Below, piece after piece: positions 44,449 through 55,339 of a DNA stretch of 64,000 nt. How positions within the stretch are numbered: position 1 is the first letter of the stretch; each line of letters opens with the position of its first letter. The position numbers and the translations under genes were made by a program. Origin of the DNA: Nitrospira sp. (lineage in GTDB: Bacteria > Nitrospirota > Nitrospiria > Nitrospirales > Nitrospiraceae); assembly GCA_024998595.1 (NCBI GenBank), contig JACOEK010000004.1, positions 434,001-498,000 on the forward strand, given 5' to 3'. Below the pieces are notes generated by a model. That model did not search any database. It saw only the letters and a list, made by a program, of their open reading frames with translations, and had not been told where the DNA came from.

Positions 44449-45486
44449 ATGTATCGATTTGAATTGCTGAATCCTGAAAACGATGGTCCCTGGAGCAGGG
44501 TGTATTCCTATGAAAGCAGCACTGTGTTTCAAACACGGGCGTGGATTGCCTTCCTTGTGGCTACCCAGCACGCTGTTCCGGTGATTGTGGGGATACGAGA
44601 TGGCGATCGCGCCGTGGGGTACTTCGTCGGCTTGATCGTGGAGCGCTTCGGGGTACGAATTCTGGGTAGTCCTTTTCCAGGCTGGACCACCGATTACATG
44701 GGATTCGTGTTGGAGCCCGGCAGCTGTCGTATCTCAGCCCTTCGCGGACTGTTTGACTTTGCTTTTGAACGTCTCGGTTGTGCGCATGTTGAAGTCATGG
44801 ATCGGCAGCTCACGACCCAAGATCTCAGCCACGTAAATGCCAACTATCGGCTCTACGAAGGATTTGCGGTCGACCTGTCGTTAGATGAGGCGACGCTCTT
44901 TGCAAACTTCACGAGCCCCTGCCGTCGTTGCATCCGGAAGGCAGACAAGGACGGCGTGCATGTCGAAGTCGCGCCGGCTGAGGGATTCGCTGAGGATTAT
45001 TATGAGCAACTCAAAGACGTCTTCGCGAAGCAGAGCCTCGTTCCAACGTATGGTCTCGATCGCGTGAGACAGTTAATCGCGCATCTGCACCCTGTCGGTT
45101 ACCTGCTTCTTCTACGAGCGCGCGATCGTAGCGGACGCTCTATCGCTACCGGCATTTTTCCGTTTCTTCACGGGGTGATGTATTTCTGGGGCGGCGCGAG
45201 CTGGCGGGAATTTCAAATCCTTCGTCCGAATCAGGCGTTGCACTGGTTTGCCATGAAACATGCGAAGGCTCATGGCGTTCATACGTATGATTTGGGCGGC
45301 GCGGGTGAGTACAAGCGCCAGTACGGCGGCCGTGAGATCCGGACTCCCTGGATCAGAAAATCCAAATATGCGTGGATGGAGCCTGCGCGTACCCTGGCAC
45401 AAGAGGCATTCAGGGTCCGTCAGCAGATGCAGGGACAATGGCGCCAGCTATTTGCAAAGACTCGAGCGGTATCTGTCAATACGTAG
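44449..45486 (+). CDS. FemAB/GNAT-like acyl- or aminoacyltransferase of the exosortase-EPS type
   Basis: 345 residues with a double GNAT fold. FQTRAWIAFLVATQHAVPVI near residue 25, SPCRRCIRKADKDGVHVE near 155, and YFWGGASWREFQILRPNQAL near 243 match the BioF2-like/FemAB-related group that recurs in PEP-CTERM/exosortase EPS loci (TIGR03019-like). Such proteins transfer amino-acid or acyl groups to a glycan or peptide; the donor here is unknown. Confidence 0.8.
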   Translation: MYRFELLNPENDGPWSRVYSYESSTVFQTRAWIAFLVATQHAVPVIVGIRDGDRAVGYFVGLIVERFGVRILGSPFPGWTTDYMGFVLEPGSCRISALRGLFDFAFERLGCAHVEVMDRQLTTQDLSHVNANYRLYEGFAVDLSLDEATLFANFTSPCRRCIRKADKDGVHVEVAPAEGFAEDYYEQLKDVFAKQSLVPTYGLDRVRQLIAHLHPVGYLLLLRARDRSGRSIATGIFPFLHGVMYFWGGASWREFQILRPNQALHWFAMKHAKAHGVHTYDLGGAGEYKRQYGGREIRTPWIRKSKYAWMEPARTLAQEAFRVRQQMQGQWRQLFAKTRAVSVNT

Positions 45487-46939: not shown

Positions 46940-47446
46940 ATGACCAATCGAGAGCAGCTGATCAAGGCGAGGCTGGCCATACTCACGATGGCGGCGGAGC
47001 TCAACAATGTGGTCAAAGTCTGTAAACTGGCGGGGGTGAGCCGGTCTCATTTCTATGCCATGAAAAAAGCGTATGAGACTCAGGGAAAGGAAGGATTGGC
47101 TCCGCGAGTGCGTCGGAAGCCATTGATGCCTAATCGCACACCGGAGTGGCTCGAAGGGCATATCCTCGCTAAAACACAAGAGAATCCAACGGTGAGTTAC
47201 GTCCGGCTGGCCGGGCAGTTGCAGGGGAGCGGGGTCGCAGTCACTCCGGCCATGGTTCGATACGTCTGGCAACGGGAGGGGCTATCGACCCGTCATGCTC
47301 GTCTGCATTGGGTCAAGGTGAAGGTCCGTCAGGCTTGTGTTCAGCGGGAATTTGGGAGAGACGATGGCGACCACTCTGATAGCTCTTCGGCGGCACGTCA
47401 CTGTGCCGCCGGTGCGATCGGGCACGACGGTGCGTCCCCTTTATGA
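46940..47446 (+). pseudogene. Truncated IS481-like transposase HTH gene
   Basis: 168 residues. The first about 130 look like the N-terminal winged HTH pair of IS481-type transposases (EQLIKARLAILTMAAELNNV, VSRSHFYAMKKAYETQGKEG, MVRYVWQREGLSTRHARLHW). The DDE catalytic core is absent. The last 35 residues (rich in Asp, Ser and His) do not look like a protein domain, suggesting a frameshift or deletion junction. AAGGA precedes the ATG. It could be a remnant or a reused DNA-binding protein. No terminal repeats were found. Confidence 0.65.
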
Positions 47447-47516
47447 CTTCCTTGTGATACTAGATGTTGGTTCTTGTCCTGAGTGCTTTAACTAAGTAGT
47501 TGCACTCCCATTTTTC

Positions 47517-47545
47517 TTGACGTTCTCTCTCCAGAGCGGGACAAT
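47517..47545 (+). promoter_or_regulatory. Candidate sigma-70 promoter of the tiny PEP-CTERM-like gene
   Basis: TTGACG at 47517-47522 and GACAAT at 47540-47545, exactly 17 bases apart, lie about 130 bases before the small gene's ATG. The -10 box is only 4/6. It would give an independent transcript with a leader of about 125 bases. Confidence 0.35.
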
Positions 47546-47679
47546 GCGTGCCTACTACGATGTTGGAGTTTCGTGTGAGCGCCACGAACGCATAGGCGGA
47601 ATATCGGTCAGGTTTTAGCGGTTACGGCTGTTACGATTGTGAGTCCAAGCAGGGTGTTCTTTAACGAAGGGAGGCATGA

Positions 47680-47850
47680 ATGATAGCAGCACACATGGGC
47701 GACTGGCTTTCTACCATTATTGGGTTGATCAATGGGTATCCGCGAACTCCGGGAACGGGGGGAAGCGTTCCTGTTCCTGAAACCCTGCTGGTCTTTGCTC
47801 TGGGCTTTGCGGCGTTTGTCGTATGGCGGGCGAAGCGAGTGGAAGAGTAG
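47680..47850 (+). CDS. 56-residue protein with PEP-CTERM-like C-terminal sorting tail
   Basis: Small protein starting MIAAHMGDWLSTIIGLINGY, then a Pro/Gly/Thr linker (PRTPGTGGSVPVPET), a hydrophobic stretch (LLVFALGFAAFVVW) and a basic end (RAKRVEE). The tail has the three parts of an exosortase sorting signal: a Pro-Glu motif, one transmembrane segment and basic residues. The motif reads VPET instead of the common VPEP. There is no clear basic n-region of a Sec signal peptide. GGGAGG five bases before the ATG supports the start; a second ATG at 47676 sits too close to that site and opens a short unrelated frame. The exosortase gene begins 215 bases downstream, so this is probably a dedicated substrate. 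Confidence 0.72.
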   Translation: MIAAHMGDWLSTIIGLINGYPRTPGTGGSVPVPETLLVFALGFAAFVVWRAKRVEE

Positions 47851-47869
47851 CGCGCGCTCTGGTTAGCGA

Positions 47870-47899
47870 GCCACTCGCGCAGAGATTCGCGCGAGTGGC
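47870..47899 (+). terminator. Hairpin after the tiny gene
   Basis: A perfect 11-bp inverted repeat, GCCACTCGCGC (47870-47880) and GCGCGAGTGGC (47889-47899), with an 8-base loop lies 19 bases past the stop. It is followed by CACCTTCTCTCC, not a true T-run, so termination may be partial or the hairpin may protect the small mRNA's 3' end. Confidence 0.55.
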
Positions 47900-48064
47900 C
47901 ACCTTCTCTCCCGGTTTGAATTTAAAATATTCTTAGCATTCCCCCTATCTCTTACAAAGAGCTTCAAGTTTCTCAACTGAATTGGCCGAAGGCCGATACT
48001 GTCTTGTGCGAGGAGAACACGCAAACTGCGTTGCGACCTTGCGATACTTTATTGCCGTATCCCT

Positions 48065-49054
48065 ATGAAAACAGCCGACCGGATTTTAACCGGGCCTGCA
48101 TCGACCGCGCCTACTCTATGGTCAGACTTCCAGAAAGCTGGAATGATTCTCTGCGCAGCATCTCTCTGTGTCGCCACCCTCTTCTGGCCGACCATTCAAT
48201 CGATGGTTGACGTGTGGGGGAGCTCCCGGACCTTTGCGCATGGGTTTCTGGTTTTGCCGGTCGTGGGGTATCTCGTCTGGTCGTTCCGTCGCCCTCTGGA
48301 TTCCTTGTCGCCTGTTCCGAATGCCTGGGGAGTGGCAGCTCTCCTCGGCACCGGGTGTGCCTGGGCAGTAGGACAAGTCGCGGACCTCTTGTGGCTCCAA
48401 CAGGCGGCGGTGGTCGCATCTTTGCCTGGCCTGATCTGGACGATCTATGGCACCCAGATTGTCCGAACGCTTTCCTGGCCGCTCGGGTTTCTTCTATTTC
48501 TTCTTCCCGTCGGGACGTCCCTTGAACCCTGGCTTCAGGATATCACCGCCTGGCTCATTCTCCGCGGCCTCGATCTGTCGGGTATCACATATGCCTATCG
48601 AGGCTACGACATCATGGTTGGTCCGGCTGTCTGGGAAGTTGCCCCTGATTGCGGGGGGCTGCGGTATCTCCTACCTGGACTCTCGCTGGCCTATGCCTTT
48701 GTGGCGCTGACGTATCGGCAGCCGACCAGGCGAATTCTGTTTCTGATCCTCTGTGCCGTCGTCTTGATGATCGCCAACGGTATTCGCGCCTATGGGGTGA
48801 TCGTGGGGAATCATCTCGGCATTGCGGTCGATGCCGATCATCGCCTGTTCAGTTATACGATTTATGGGCTGACCATGCCCTGCCTATTTTGGTTAGGGCT
48901 TAAGTGGAAGCAACGGCCTACCGCCGACACGGGAATGCGCCCGGGAGTGGCTGAGCGTTTAGATGCCCGCAAAGCCATGTTCGCTTCCCTCATTGGAGTT
49001 GGTGGGTTATTCCTCGCGCGTCTTTCGGTGTGGTTTCTTTCCGCCTCGTTTTAA
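48065..49054 (+). CDS. Exosortase (membrane cysteine transpeptidase-like sorting enzyme)
   Basis: 329 residues with about eight transmembrane segments. The opening has the family motif FAHGFLVLPVVGYLVWSFRR. The catalytic triad is readable as Cys196 in VAPDCGGLRYLLPGL, Arg241 in IANGIRAYG and His259 in DADHRLFSYTIYG. Exosortases cleave proteins bearing PEP-CTERM-type tails and attach or release them in EPS-producing bacteria. It lacks a fused C-terminal EpsI domain; the end is a single extra membrane span. It lies between the tiny tailed protein and aminosugar genes. No strong ribosome site precedes the ATG. Confidence 0.92.
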   Translation: MKTADRILTGPASTAPTLWSDFQKAGMILCAASLCVATLFWPTIQSMVDVWGSSRTFAHGFLVLPVVGYLVWSFRRPLDSLSPVPNAWGVAALLGTGCAWAVGQVADLLWLQQAAVVASLPGLIWTIYGTQIVRTLSWPLGFLLFLLPVGTSLEPWLQDITAWLILRGLDLSGITYAYRGYDIMVGPAVWEVAPDCGGLRYLLPGLSLAYAFVALTYRQPTRRILFLILCAVVLMIANGIRAYGVIVGNHLGIAVDADHRLFSYTIYGLTMPCLFWLGLKWKQRPTADTGMRPGVAERLDARKAMFASLIGVGGLFLARLSVWFLSASF

Positions 49055-49181
49055 TTCATCACGTCATCGCATATGTGGCTTCTGCCGCCGGGTCGAGAGT
49101 TCCGCTCCGTCCCGCAGGTAGGCCCTCCGGATTTCGCATTCGTTTTTGATGGTTTTCACGCTGTCTGAGAGGAAATGTACT

Positions 49182-50339
49182 ATGGCTGCCTATCTTCCGT
49201 TCCATGTTCCGGAAATTGACGACGAGGATATCGAAGCAGTCGTGAGCGTGCTGCGTTCAGGGTGGCTGACCACCGGCAGCAAGGCCAGGCAATTCGAGCA
49301 GGAGTTTGCTGCCAAGGTAGGGGCACGATATGCGGTGGCCTTGAATTCATGTACGGCCGCCCTGCATTTGGCGCTGGAGGCGATCGGCCTTGGTGAGGGG
49401 GACGAAGTGCTCGTGCCTACCATGACGTTTGCGGCTACGGCGGAAGTCGTCACCTATTTCAAGGCCAAGCCTGTGCTCATCGATTGTCTTCCGGCGACCT
49501 TGAACATGAATCCCGATCATCTTGAACGGGCCATTACACCCCGGACCAAGGCGATCATTCCGGTTCATTTCGCCGGTCAGCCTTGCGACATGACCTCGAT
49601 CCTGGAGGTTGCGCGTCGCCACAATCTTCGAGTCATCGAAGATGCGGCCCACGCCTTTCCCGCTTCATACAAGGGCAAGGTGATCGGGAGCATTAGCGAC
49701 TGCACGTGCTTCTCGTTCTACGCCACGAAAAATATCACGACGGGTGAAGGAGGAATGGTTACGACCGACGACCCGGACTGGGCGGATCGCATACGCCGGA
49801 TGAGTTTGCATGGACTGAGTCGCGATGCCTGGAAACGCTATACCAATCAAGGTTCATGGTACTACGAGATTGTCGCCCCGGGATTCAAATATAACCTGAC
49901 CGACATGGCGGCGGCGTTGGGGCTGTCACAGTTGCATAAGGCCGATCGATTCTGGAAAACCCGGGAGCGCTATGCGGCGCTGTATGCGGAGGGGTTTCGA
50001 GATCTGCCCGAGATCACTCCATTGGTCATGCAGGACGATGTGCAACATGCCTGGCATTTATATGTGATTCAACTCGATCTGGACCGGTTACGCATTACGC
50101 GTGACGCGTTCATTGAACGGCTCCAACAACAACAGATCGGATGCAGTGTCCATTTCATCCCGCTCCACCTGCATCCGTATTACCGTAGCACGTGGGGATA
50201 TCGTCCCGAAGATTTTCCGGTAGCCAGCCGGGCCTTTAAGAGCATGGTGTCGCTCCCCCTCTACTCGAAAATGATGGAGTCGGACATTCACCGCACCATT
50301 GCCGCGGTCCGCGAGCTTGTGCTGGAGGCCAGGCAATGA
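49182..50339 (+). CDS. DegT/DnrJ/EryC1 sugar aminotransferase (PglE/ArnB-like)
   Basis: 385 residues, PLP-dependent. The start FHVPEIDDEDIEAVVSVLRS with GWLTTG is typical of the PglE/PseC/ArnB branch, which acts on 4-keto-6-deoxy sugars. SFYATKNITTGEGGMVTTDD carries the PLP Lys near residue 185, and VIEDAAHAFPASYKGK carries the cofactor Asp. The next gene, which overlaps it (ATGA), has the 4,6-dehydratase that would supply its substrate. AGAGGA eight bases upstream supports ATG 49182. Confidence 0.9.
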   Translation: MAAYLPFHVPEIDDEDIEAVVSVLRSGWLTTGSKARQFEQEFAAKVGARYAVALNSCTAALHLALEAIGLGEGDEVLVPTMTFAATAEVVTYFKAKPVLIDCLPATLNMNPDHLERAITPRTKAIIPVHFAGQPCDMTSILEVARRHNLRVIEDAAHAFPASYKGKVIGSISDCTCFSFYATKNITTGEGGMVTTDDPDWADRIRRMSLHGLSRDAWKRYTNQGSWYYEIVAPGFKYNLTDMAAALGLSQLHKADRFWKTRERYAALYAEGFRDLPEITPLVMQDDVQHAWHLYVIQLDLDRLRITRDAFIERLQQQQIGCSVHFIPLHLHPYYRSTWGYRPEDFPVASRAFKSMVSLPLYSKMMESDIHRTIAAVRELVLEARQ

Positions 50340-52900
50340 AACGCGCCGTGGATGTTATCGGAGCGCTGATCGGTCTGGTGGTGACCTGGCCCCTCTGGGT
50401 CCTGGCCGCAGTTGCCGTCAAGCTCGATTCCCCAGGGCCGGTCTTTTTCACGCAGACTCGCATGGGTCGCGATCGTCGGCCGTTTTCGATTTACAAGTTT
50501 CGCACCATGACGGCCGACGCACCGTCGAGAGGCGGGCAGTTGACGATCGGTCAGGATGCCCGCGTGACCGGGGTCGGCGTCGCATTGCGTAAATATAAGA
50601 TCGATGAATTGCCGCAACTCTGGAATATCCTGACGGGCGATATGAGCCTGGTCGGTCCGAGGCCGGAAGTGCCGCGGTATGTGAATATGTTTCCGGAAGC
50701 CTATGCGGACATCCTTACGGCTCGGCCCGGTCTGACCGACCTCGCCTCGCTGAAATATATCGATGAAGCGGCTGTCCTCGCTGCCTCTGCCAGTCCGGAG
50801 GAGGAATACGTCACGGTTGTGCTGCCTGAAAAAATCCGCTTGGCCAAATTTTATGTCCGGCATGCTTCGACGATTTTGGACCTTGCCATTGTCATTCAGA
50901 CCTTGCTGTGCTTGCTGAAAATCCCCGTGGTCGTCTGTGATTTGCCGGGTCTGCAGGTGGCGAGACCGTCACAATCGACTGACTTCGGTCCGCGGTGTCT
51001 GGCATTCATTCTCAAATGGCGCCGTCCGCTGATTGTGCTCCTCGATATGGGGTTGATGGGGCTGGCCAATTACCTCGCCTTCTGGCTGCGTTTCGACGGC
51101 CGGATTCCGGAGGCGGAATGGGACACGTTGCTCCTGGTATTGCCCTGGGTGCTGACGATCCGTACTGCCGCGTTCATGGTGTTTCGCTTGAATGAAGGCC
51201 TGTGGCGATACACCAGTCTTTGGGATTTGAGGAACATCGTTGTCGGAGTGGTCACCAGTACCCTCGTGTTGTACGCATGGACGCGATGGGGAATGGGCAT
51301 CAGGGAATATCCTCGGTCGATTTTTATCATCGATGCCATTCTCTTGATCGGGTTTTCCGCAGGGGTGCGACTTCCGCGACGCATATTGCGTGAGGCGGTC
51401 ATTTATCGCCCGAAGAAAAGCGTCCTCATCATCGGTGCAGGAGACAGGGGAGAACGGGTTGTACGAGAAATGAAGCTCAATTCCAATTCCCGGTACCAGC
51501 CGATCGGATTCATCGATGATCACACATCGCTTCGATTCAAGAGAATCCACGGAGTGAAGGTGCTTGGGGGTCGGGAAGATCTGTCCTACGTGCTCTCGAC
51601 GGAACGCCCGGACGAGGTGGTATTGGCGCTCCCGCAGGTGACTCCCGATGTCTTGCGTCAAATCATGGCCGACATCGGCCCGTTTAAAGTGTCGGTCAAA
51701 ATGTTGCCGAGTATGCAGGACTTGCTCGGGGACCGGAGCGCCGTCAGTCAGATCAGAAACGTGGCCGTTGAAGATCTGCTGGCGCGAGCGCCGGTTCACA
51801 TGAAGACCGATGCCATGGTGGAGATGGTGGCCGGACGCCGGGTGCTGATTACCGGTGCCGGCGGCTCGATCGGCTCGGAACTGTCGCGTCAGATCGCCTC
51901 TATGGGGCCGGAGTCCGTCGTGTTGTATGAGCGGCATGAAAACAGCCTCTACACTATCGCCAAAGAGTTGGACGACCGGGGGTTGTCCGCGATCGTCCAT
52001 CCTGTGCTGGGTGATGTGACGGATCGCCGTCGACTGATGGAAACGATGACCCGGTATCGGCCTGCCATTGTCTTTCATGCGGCCGCTCACAAACATGTTC
52101 CGCTGGTCGAACTCAATCCTGCGGAAGCGTTGAAAAATAACTGCATCGGAACCCGTATCACGGCGGAAACGGCGGATCGCTGTGGAGTGGAACGATTTGT
52201 CCTGATTTCCACCGACAAGGCGGTGAATCCGTCCAGCGTGATGGGAGCTACGAAACGCGTCGCCGAGTTGATCGTGCAGGACATGGCTGAGCGAAGCGCG
52301 ACACGATTTCTCACCGTGCGCTTCGGTAACGTTCTGGGCAGCAATGGCAGCGTGCTGCTTCGCTTTCAGGAGCAGATTCAAGCCGGGGGACCGGTCACGG
52401 TGACACACCCGGACATTCGGCGGTACTTCATGCTGATTCCGGAAGCCGTGCATCTCGTGCTGCAAGCCGCTACGCTGGGCGAGCAGGGGGCCACGTATGT
52501 GCTGGACATGGGGGAGCAAATCAAAGTCTTGGATCTCGCCAGGAATTTGATTCGCCTGTCGGGGTTCGTGCCGGGACGGGAGATCCCCATCCGTTTCGTC
52601 GGTCTTCGACCTGGTGAGAAATTGTATGAGGAACTGGTCGGCACGGATGAGAGCGCCGAGCGATCGGCGCTGAGCAAGATCTTGCGCATTCGCCGGTCAG
52701 GCATGACCGGCGTCGGTAAGGTCTCGGGCATGATGATGGCCATGGAGGCAGCCGCCTATCTCAACAACCCGGTCAAGGCGATCGAACGTCTGCGTGAACT
52801 GGTCACGGATTTCCGTCCGCCGGAAAATAATGACGACCCCGGCATATTGGGGACGGAATGGATCGAGGATGAGCCGGCCTATTCGGGGCCCGGCCGGTAG
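50336..52900 (+). CDS. Fusion of phosphoglycosyltransferase (PglC-like) and WbpM/PglF-like 4,6-dehydratase
   Basis: 854 residues. Residues 1-190 are a monotopic phosphoglycosyltransferase: membrane re-entrant [20 protein letters not shown], and [20 protein letters not shown] with the catalytic Asp-Glu pair. About residues 220-350 hold four membrane spans. A CoA-binding-like Rossmann fold follows ([20 protein letters not shown], residue 361). From residue 499 comes the dehydratase ([20 protein letters not shown]) with [21 protein letters not shown] Met sits in the usual SDR Tyr position of that motif, as in WbpM/PglF. One protein thus makes the 4-keto sugar and starts the lipid-linked chain. 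These enzymes are normally separate. Confidence 0.9.
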
Positions 52901-52978
52901 AGAAGACGATTCGTGTTTGTGTGATAGCCGACAGGACATGGGAATCGTACGATTCTTGTACACGACCGCCGTATCCGA

Positions 52979-55339
52979 ATGGCAGCAATGAGCAGGGCGA
53001 CCGTAACAGGCAGGGTGGAGACTATGGGGCAAACGAATGTCATGCCGCAAAACGGCAATACCGCAGCAAATCTGTTCAATGAATATTGGGGCATGGTCTT
53101 GCGCCGGAAATGGATTCTTCTGGGAGCGGTGCTCGTCTCCTTGGGAGCGGCCATGGTCTATTGCAAGGTGGCGACCAAGGTGTATCGCTCCGATACGTTG
53201 ATTCTCCTCGAGGATCAGAAGATTCCTGAGAATTATGTCCAAGCCAATGCGGAAGGGAACAGCAACTTCGATCGCCGGATTTTTGTGATCGAAACTCAGG
53301 TGCGCGATCGGCTGCGGCTCGACAAAATTCGCAAAGAGTTGAATCTCTATCCGGCGCAGGTGGAACAATCCGGCCCGGATTCAGCGGTGCTTGCCATGAA
53401 CGCGGCACTGGAAGTCACGACGGTGAGTAAAGGCGGTGTGCCCGGTCAGAATACGATCGGTGCCTTTACCATCTCCTTTGCGCATGAGGACCCGGCCACG
53501 GCCATGAATGTCATCGCTAAGATATCATCGATGCTGATCGAGGAGGATATGAAGGACCGCACGCAAGCGGCCGAAGGGACGACGGAGTTCCTCGATAATG
53601 AAGTAAATCGGACGCGGGCTCAGCTCGATAAAAAAGAGGAAGAGATCAGCCGCTTCAAGTCGCAACATGTCGGGCAATTACCGCAACAAATCGAGGCGAA
53701 TTTGCGCGCCCTGGATCGTTTGCATGACGATCTCAAAATCGTCAATGAGAGCATCCATCGTCAGAGTGACCGCCTGTCCTTGGTGGAAAATGCCATCCAG
53801 AAGTATCTGGAATTCGGTGTGACGATTCCCGCGTTGGTGAATGGGCCGGTTCAGCCGAATCCATCTTTCGCGCGTTTGAATGAACTGAAGAACAAGCTGA
53901 CGCAGTTGGAATCCGAATTCTGGGACGGCTATCCCGAGGTGGCGCTGACGAAGGAAGAGATCAAGCAAATCGAACAACGGATCCGGAAGCAGTATGGGCC
54001 TGAGTCCATGGGCTCTGACGCCGAAACCAAGGATCAATATTTTCAGGATCTGAAGAAGCAGAAAAGTGAGTTAAAGAGCGAACTTTCCCTTTTGAAGGAA
54101 CGGCGGAACACGCTCCGGGCTGAGAAGCAGGAGTATGACTCCCGGGTGGAAACCGCTCCGGCGATCGAGCAAAGTCTGCTCACCTTGATGCGGGATTATG
54201 AAAATCTCAAGGGCAGTTACCAGTCCTTGCTGGATAAGCGGTTGCACGCTTCGGTGGCCGAGAATCTTGAAAAGCGCCAAAAGGGCGCGCAGCTCAAAAT
54301 ACTGGAACGTCCCAAGTTTCCGCGGGTGCCTGAGAAACCGAATCAACCCCGCGTCATGATGCTCGGTTTGCTTCTCGGGTGCGCGCTCGGGGTAGGAATG
54401 GCGGTGTTACTTGAACAGTTGAATCCCCAATTCCGTCGTCCCGAGGATGTCGAGCTGATGTTCGGACCCCAACTCCTGGCTGCGATTCCCGATTTTTCGT
54501 TGGATTACGCGTATTCGAACTGGAGGCGGTTCCTTCCTGCCTACCACTTTAGGTTTGGTGGAAAATCAGCCCAACAGGCCGCCGGCTTGATTCCGATTCG
54601 GCCAGGGGAGACAGCCCTGAACGGAACGAACGGTCATACCTTCGATCGCAGTTTTGTCGTCAAATGGATGCCCAACGCGATTGTGTCCGAGCAGTATCGG
54701 GTCGCAGCGACACGACTGTTTTTGCTGGGAACGGAAACACAATCGACCGTCGTGGCGGTGAGCAGTGCCATCAAGGGTGAAGGAAAGACGACGACCGTCA
54801 TCAATCTCGGCTATACCCTGGCGCGCGACTTGGGCAAACGGGTCCTGTTACTGGATTGCGACATGAAATGCCCGGGATTGGATAAGTTCATGGAGAATAG
54901 TCCGGAGGGAGGATTGGCCGATTATCTCGTCGGTGCGTTGGATCTTGACGACTGCATCTCGAGCTTCGGTGATGTGCCGTGCTGGATTATGCCGGTTGGA
55001 AATTCAGTGGCCAATTCGACGGAAGTGCTCCGAACAGACCGCCTCACTCCGCTCTTTGATCGGCTACGGAAGCGATTTGACTATATCATCTTGAATACTC
55101 CTCCGATTCTTCCTCAGGCGACCATGAATGTCCTCGAAGGGCATGCCGATGTGCTCCTGCTGGTGGTACGTGCAAACTCCACCCCGCATGATGTCGTCAG
55201 GCGGGCAGTCGGATCATTGAGAAGTCGTAAAGCCCTTCACGTTGTGCTGAATGCGGTCGGCAGCCAGTCTCTTCCCTCGTATGTCTACGAATATGGGCAG
55301 CCTCAAACGAAGGTTCCTCGCGGGCAGCTGAAGGCATAA
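52979..55339 (+). CDS. Wzc/GumC-like chain-length determinant with tyrosine autokinase domain
   Basis: 786 residues. The first membrane span is near residue 45 (KWILLGAVLVSLGAAMVYCK), then a Wzz domain, a long coiled coil (about 190-400, rich in Glu/Lys/Gln) and a second span near 455 (LGLLLGCALGVGMAVLLEQL). The cytoplasmic BY-kinase has Walker A SSAIKGEGKTTTVINLG near residue 598 and Walker A' LLLDCDMKCPGLDK. The end carries a Tyr cluster (SYVYEYG), the usual autophosphorylation site. It controls chain length and export of EPS. ATG 53024 is an alternative start. Confidence 0.92.
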   Translation: MAAMSRATVTGRVETMGQTNVMPQNGNTAANLFNEYWGMVLRRKWILLGAVLVSLGAAMVYCKVATKVYRSDTLILLEDQKIPENYVQANAEGNSNFDRRIFVIETQVRDRLRLDKIRKELNLYPAQVEQSGPDSAVLAMNAALEVTTVSKGGVPGQNTIGAFTISFAHEDPATAMNVIAKISSMLIEEDMKDRTQAAEGTTEFLDNEVNRTRAQLDKKEEEISRFKSQHVGQLPQQIEANLRALDRLHDDLKIVNESIHRQSDRLSLVENAIQKYLEFGVTIPALVNGPVQPNPSFARLNELKNKLTQLESEFWDGYPEVALTKEEIKQIEQRIRKQYGPESMGSDAETKDQYFQDLKKQKSELKSELSLLKERRNTLRAEKQEYDSRVETAPAIEQSLLTLMRDYENLKGSYQSLLDKRLHASVAENLEKRQKGAQLKILERPKFPRVPEKPNQPRVMMLGLLLGCALGVGMAVLLEQLNPQFRRPEDVELMFGPQLLAAIPDFSLDYAYSNWRRFLPAYHFRFGGKSAQQAAGLIPIRPGETALNGTNGHTFDRSFVVKWMPNAIVSEQYRVAATRLFLLGTETQSTVVAVSSAIKGEGKTTTVINLGYTLARDLGKRVLLLDCDMKCPGLDKFMENSPEGGLADYLVGALDLDDCISSFGDVPCWIMPVGNSVANSTEVLRTDRLTPLFDRLRKRFDYIILNTPPILPQATMNVLEGHADVLLLVVRANSTPHDVVRRAVGSLRSRKALHVVLNAVGSQSLPSYVYEYGQPQTKVPRGQLKA

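Follow-up and report, generated by a model that had tools for sequence, protein, structure and literature searches.

Exosortases that serve a single target, among them XrtE with its VPEID-CTERM protein, have a short target that adjoins the enzyme. To our knowledge, both the site at which exosortases cleave and the acceptor of the product are still open. The Pf3 coat protein reaches the membrane in the absence of a signal peptide, and we know of no exosortase motif in it. In the available portions of their texts, the paper that set out the 2006 exosortase model leaves the cleavage site unspecified and gives a signal peptide for 97% of PEP-CTERM proteins (PMC1569441), while another account states that these proteins ‘always’ have one (PMC3237569). 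Open-access papers on exosortases or PEP-CTERM proteins in Nitrospira yielded, in the text available from them, nothing on the pair described here, and no open-access paper on VPEID-CTERM was found. Judged from these searches of the open-access literature, with most subscription journals outside, a dedicated XrtA cassette with a micro-substrate that lacks a recognisable signal peptide is apparently undescribed. The candidate lies in a 64,000-nucleotide stretch of Nitrospira sp. DNA, the window, from a genome assembly (G000) of 4.23 Mb in 15 contigs.

A micro-substrate gene paired with an XrtA-class exosortase

The original prediction described a tiny gene with promoter-like boxes, a ribosome site, a 3′ hairpin and a Pro-Glu tail, directly upstream of a complete exosortase; each of these features is present, and in its place. 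The small gene (47680..47850, + strand) encodes the 56-aa protein MIAAHMGDWLSTIIGLINGYPRTPGTGGSVPVPETLLVFALGFAAFVVWRAKRVEE, in which 32 residues precede PET, followed by a single hydrophobic span and RAKR near the end. Its ATG, at 47680, stands immediately 3′ of an in-frame TGA, and the gene ends 214 nt upstream of the exosortase gene. The tail scores 24.8 bits with the PEP-CTERM model PF07589 (cut-off 20.7) and falls narrowly below the cut-off of TIGR02595 (15.2 vs 16), with which the relative from G025 scores 18.2; its motif is VPVPET, and not the literal Pro-Glu-Pro.

The exosortase (329 aa; 48065..49054, + strand) exceeds the cut-offs of both the XrtA model TIGR03109 (221.4 vs 208) and PF09721 (171.8 vs 25.7), and an alignment of 12 sequences shows no change at the predicted catalytic residues C196, R241 and H259. 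Among relatives, the TIGR03109 scan covered the window protein and the G045 exosortase only, the latter scoring 223.4. A search by sequence for a PDB relative returned none, the single match being at chance level (E 0.97). Downstream (49146..55339, + strand), profile matches identify a DegT-type aminotransferase, a bacterial sugar transferase fused to a Polysacc_synt_2 domain, and a chain-length determinant fused to a tyrosine kinase. These neighbours place the enzyme in the polysaccharide (EPS) locus characteristic of XrtA, though the equivalog models of the XrtA system score below their cut-offs (TIGR03007, 209.9 vs 278.85; TIGR03018, 121.9 vs 230.65). Upstream, a FemAB-like protein (44449..45486, + strand) weakly matches the XrtA-associated model TIGR03019 (30.9 bits vs 260.35).

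The small gene is real and constantly paired with this enzyme. A small-gene profile at E <= 1e-28 gave eight matches in seven of 175 family genomes, all adjoining this exosortase: the frame precedes the same enzyme in the window and at seven further loci in six genomes (G008, G024, G025, G027, G028 and, twice, G088), and thus at all eight loci found for the window's lineage. Pooled over the 28 pairs that these loci form, pN/pS is 0.36 (0.18 in the tail, 0.48 in the N-part), indicating purifying selection, with synonymous sites near saturation in several pairs. Conservation of the frame as protein, a check named beforehand, is therefore found in relatives, and rules out a spurious open reading frame. 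Conservation of the N-part is moderate, and the N-part of G024 differs strongly. The G025 locus was considered as a decayed pair and rejected, as its PGT motif is the usual state among sister substrates and its exosortase stops seven residues early, beyond the catalytic residues. G088 carries the HTH gene discussed below, the small gene and the exosortase in two closely similar sets (L086, L087), which may be a duplication or, in this draft genome of 88% completeness and 6% contamination, may come from two strains. Elsewhere, at G022:C37:82224-82963, an exosortase match falls in two pieces, the larger with two internal TGA stops, and is possibly a broken gene.

Short neighbouring substrates extend beyond this lineage. 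An XrtA-type profile built from 12 sequences, three of them only 38-41% identical to the window exosortase, matched 16 loci at E <= 1e-40, in 15 of the 175 family genomes and five of 22 genera. At 14 of these 16 loci, a short substrate whose tail has the form P-[EGAS]-T adjoins the exosortase or sits no more than 3 kb away; it is 53-135 aa long, with the start unsure in G165 (90 or 145 aa). A TPR gene separates substrate and exosortase in G034. Of the two remaining loci, the G017 exosortase starts at a contig edge, in a genome that has no strong tail (best 1.4e-4), and the G121 enzyme is distant (237 bits), with a 226-aa neighbour bearing a different type of tail. Across the phylum, sampled as 395 evenly drawn genomes, 14 match at E <= 1e-45, three of them outside the family, in long open frames.

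The predicted Pro-Glu motif stands for the window's own protein, but its Glu is not essential to the family: at that position it is absent from G025 (PGT) and from all eight aligned sister substrates, which have PGT (six), PST (one) or PAT (one). Four of the five sister substrates tested miss the PF07589 cut-off, and such cassettes may therefore be under-annotated, as profiles keyed to PEP overlook them. G010 and G034 each have two neighbouring substrates, the second in G034 being 241 aa long. The two in G010 (L076, 3214-3444 and 3851-4117) are tiny, bear signal-peptide-like N-termini and precede one XrtA-type exosortase, and one of them is rich in Asn, Gly and aromatic residues (NTNYGNFWNFWNNGNFGNWGSYGNG). 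Tryptophan makes up 33 of 524 residues in the exported parts, which are related sequences (G088b left out), against 1.9% in 17 window genes; the window's own substrate has one in 32, and those of G024, G010a and G165 have none. No weight is placed on this enrichment.

The same comparisons bear on a different role for the small protein: as a small membrane subunit or decoy, it would help to regulate or assemble the exosortase and would itself go uncut. In favour of such a partner, the eight lineage loci hardly differ in the hydrophobic span and the residues that close the protein (GFAAFV.WRA[KR]R), beyond the apparent need of a mere anchor, adjacency is strict within the lineage, and the protein has no recognisable signal peptide. 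Yet the tail has the substrate architecture of motif, span and basic end, and scores above the PEP-CTERM cut-off; proteins with like tails at sister loci have a signal-peptide-like N-terminus and mostly a longer exported part, as secreted cargo would; and two such proteins occur in each of G010 and G034. We regard an uncut partner as unlikely.

Targets of the three exosortases

The window's genome encodes three exosortases: the XrtA-class enzyme described above, an XrtW (545 vs 425) and an XrtD (538.6 vs 400), the latter two in cassettes on contigs C9 and C15 (L080, L079). PF07589 finds four tails in this genome, the small gene and three beside XrtW on another contig. By reading, the XrtW region also holds a fourth SAPEP tail, and one of its SAPEP-tailed neighbours is 1034 aa long; one neighbour of XrtD has a VPLPA-like tail, scoring 21.4 against a model cut-off of 25.35. 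With these XrtW/SAPEP and XrtD/VPLPA-like cassettes, each of the three exosortases adjoins its own candidate targets.

A profile built from 15 tails was searched against 18 genomes. In the window's genome it found the small gene at E = 2.4e-17, followed by matches at 4.2e-8, 3.9e-4 and 0.078, all three beside XrtW. G012, with one exosortase match, has one such tail (2.8e-15; next 0.26), and in G001, G004, G020 and G021, which have no XrtA-type match, the best hit was 3.4e-8. The scan for other tails, likewise proposed in advance, thus returned no large canonical target set for XrtA, and the PF07589 and tail-profile searches rule out such a set in this genome.

The three XrtW-linked tails raise the question of whether XrtA is private at all, or whether it also processes the SAPEP-tailed proteins, with the small gene as one of several targets. 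The tails are similar enough, at the best cross-match of E 4.2e-8, for cross-processing to be possible; however, the SAPEP targets lie next to an XrtW of their own, on a different contig, and G012 couples one exosortase with one such tail. Sharing of targets is unlikely, and XrtA appears, from the distribution of tails, to have the adjacent 56-residue protein as its main target. The idea of a single enzyme matched to a single small target beside it, as originally put forward, hence survives for this genome, where the frame is conserved, the one target adjoins the enzyme and no large target set exists, but not as a rule for the family, given the two substrates in G010 and in G034.

Promoter, hairpin and a candidate regulator

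Upstream of the small gene, a sigma-70-type promoter (47517..47545, + strand) consists of TTGACG (47517-47522), a 17-nt spacer and GACAAT (47540-47545). Both the -35 hexamer and the spacer length are kept in all eight lineage loci, and the -10 hexamer is GACAAT in five, CACAAT in one and GAAAAT in two. The ribosome site GGGAGG (47669..47674, + strand) corresponds to a purine-rich site in 8/8 loci, with the variants GAAGGGAGG, GAAAGGAGG or GAAAGGGGG. Behind the gene, a hairpin (47869..47900, + strand; arms GCCACTCGCG and CGCGAGTGGC) is present in all eight loci, and covaries: among seven distinct sequences, 90.5% of cells are paired and four of 12 pairs are changed on both sides. Slid versions of the hairpin were only 25-50% paired. 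In 500 shuffles, neither the share of paired cells nor the score for covariation was ever equalled; as many pairs with changes on both sides arose in 10 of them, and as many pair types in 75, so that the latter is not a distinctive measure. No clear U-run was seen by eye 3′ of the hairpin.

Further upstream lies a candidate private regulator, a helix-turn-helix (HTH) protein of 168 aa (46940..47446, + strand) that scores above the cut-offs of HTH_28 and HTH_29. It has no catalytic domain, its likeness to IS481/IS630-type transposases is confined to their N-terminal part, and it matches the IS481 model with 64.9 bits (cut-off 224) over residues 11-123 only; it is predicted, with fair probability, to be a domesticated regulator of transposase descent. 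The gene precedes the small gene in all eight lineage loci, and in G045 and G034, from two other genera, it stands before the substrate, giving a total of ten loci in four genera (g1, g4, g14 and g15). Among these copies are those in L110 (9306-9827, - strand) and L088 (7565-8125, + strand). No second copy was found in the window's genome at E <= 0.01, and tblastn with three HTH proteins found none in the stretches of G010, G012, G018 and G165, of 5.6-17 kb each.

The candidate operator is a box, AACTAAGTAGTTG (47490..47502, + strand), just 5′ of the -35 hexamer. The form AACTAAGTANTTG is kept in 8/8 lineage loci, AACTAAGTA is exact in those eight and in G045, and the box pattern with TTGAC has a single occurrence in the window's genome. 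Where the HTH gene was not found (G010, G012, G018 and G165), the best box match has two or three mismatches of nine, which is chance level. In G034, where the HTH gene is present, the best match also lies at chance level, with two mismatches in nine. The box thus accompanies the HTH gene in nine of ten loci, with G034 arguing against a fixed operator, and it is reasonable, from this co-occurrence, to treat the two as a putative private regulator-operator pair.

Entry into the envelope and relation to described systems

The presence of a signal peptide was judged from hydropathy, from charge and from stop codons ahead of the ATG, a weak test by which the small protein has no recognisable one. 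In the eight lineage proteins, the motif follows a nearly uncharged stretch of 29-36 residues, and the N-part has a best 10-residue hydropathy of 1.2-2.0, with a charge of -1 to 0 over the first ten residues. By comparison, seven short substrates at six sister loci (G010, G012, G018, G034, G045 and G165; the 241-aa protein of G034 lies outside this set) have signal-peptide-like N-termini, ending in AQA, AEA, GEA, AMA or AFA where the ends were picked by eye. Their best 10-residue hydropathy is 1.8-3.6, the two G010 proteins (1.76, 1.95) overlapping the lineage range, and the net charge of their first ten residues is 0 to +2. That the annotated start is wrong and a signal peptide is encoded upstream would suit the near-universality of signal peptides in PEP-CTERM proteins, as reported in the available part of PMC1569441, but is most improbable, and a hidden upstream signal peptide is ruled out by the stops before the ATG, which directly precede it in the window, in G008 and at both G088 loci, while the frames of G024, G025, G027 and G028 gain just 5-8 codons, over the ribosome site.

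In the exosortase tree, the eight loci with no recognisable signal peptide fall on one side of a single branch, with support of 90/99, below the tool's mark of 95/80. The trait needs one change, and 0/500 shuffles were as low (G017 unlabelled), which fits one loss of the signal peptide, or one replacement of the N-terminus. An XrtA micro-substrate with no recognisable signal peptide is, at the level of its sequence, a departure from the published PEP-CTERM rule.

The reading that we favour, and consider moderately likely, is a dedicated exosortase cassette, in which a private promoter, N-out insertion independent of a signal peptide and a cut by XrtA would bring a peptide of approximately 30 residues to an envelope acceptor. 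The promoter would drive a 56-aa protein, perhaps an abundant one, that would insert through its single hydrophobic span with the N-terminus out, the C-terminus in and the positive end inside; this orientation is predicted by the positive-inside rule from the short, nearly uncharged N-tail and the basic C-end. Insertion would plausibly proceed via YidC, by analogy with the Pf3 coat protein, which YidC inserts with an 18-residue N-terminal region; the available part of the source describes YidC as accepting small domains only, the longest of 29 residues (PMC3602594). Seven of the eight lineage N-tails (30-36 residues) are longer than this quoted maximum, and with tails at or slightly above the limit, the protein could have come to do without a signal peptide after the cargo had shrunk. 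Such insertion would place VPVPET on the outer side of the inner membrane; there, the neighbouring XrtA exosortase would cut at this motif with Cys196, and the peptide would be released, or transferred to the acceptor. That acceptor would most likely be the polysaccharide whose synthesis is encoded around the cassette, the one pointer to it being those neighbouring genes themselves. Studies of cyanoexosortase B and of floc formers, in the portion available, tie exosortases to the retention of polysaccharide on the cell surface (PMC12188702).

A bolder extension, which we put forward tentatively and think unlikely to hold, is that of a self-contained peptide-tailoring cassette, with a transposase-derived HTH switch, entry by YidC only and a private exosortase, yielding EPS decorated with a ribosomally encoded peptide; YidC alone would suffice in such a cassette, as only about 30 residues must cross. 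For the dedicated cassette that we prefer, a natural pair with one target, of 53-60 residues, would narrow the exosortase problem down to a single enzyme and a single peptide that can be synthesized. XrtA and its micro-substrate would therefore provide an unusually small test system for exosortase action, and the related loci present both states, with a signal-peptide-like N-terminus either present or absent.

The locus shares some of its properties with each of several described systems. With the Pf3 coat protein it has in common a short single-span protein, here with a predicted N-out topology (PMC3602594, in the part available), although Pf3 is a phage coat protein and the likeness is one of architecture only. 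As in the dedicated rhombosortase/GlyGly-CTERM systems, in the available description of these (PMC3237569), a single target lies beside the enzyme; unlike in those systems, whose enzyme is unrelated, the pairing here holds even alongside other exosortases in the genome. With XrtE/VPEID-CTERM it shares the short target beside an exosortase, albeit one of a different subfamily, and neither the XrtE nor the VPEID-CTERM name is among the matches listed for the two window proteins. Finally, the enzyme over its cut-off, the motif-span-basic tail and the setting among polysaccharide genes are those of PEP-CTERM/XrtA (TIGR03109), and the small gene follows a long intergenic stretch, as most PEP-CTERM genes do according to the accessible text of PMC1569441. 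The locus differs from that system in having one small neighbouring target with no recognisable signal peptide, a VxxP[EGAS]T motif instead of the literal PEP, and a sigma-70-like promoter, whereas the same text describes mostly a sigma-54 motif in Proteobacteria (PMC1569441).
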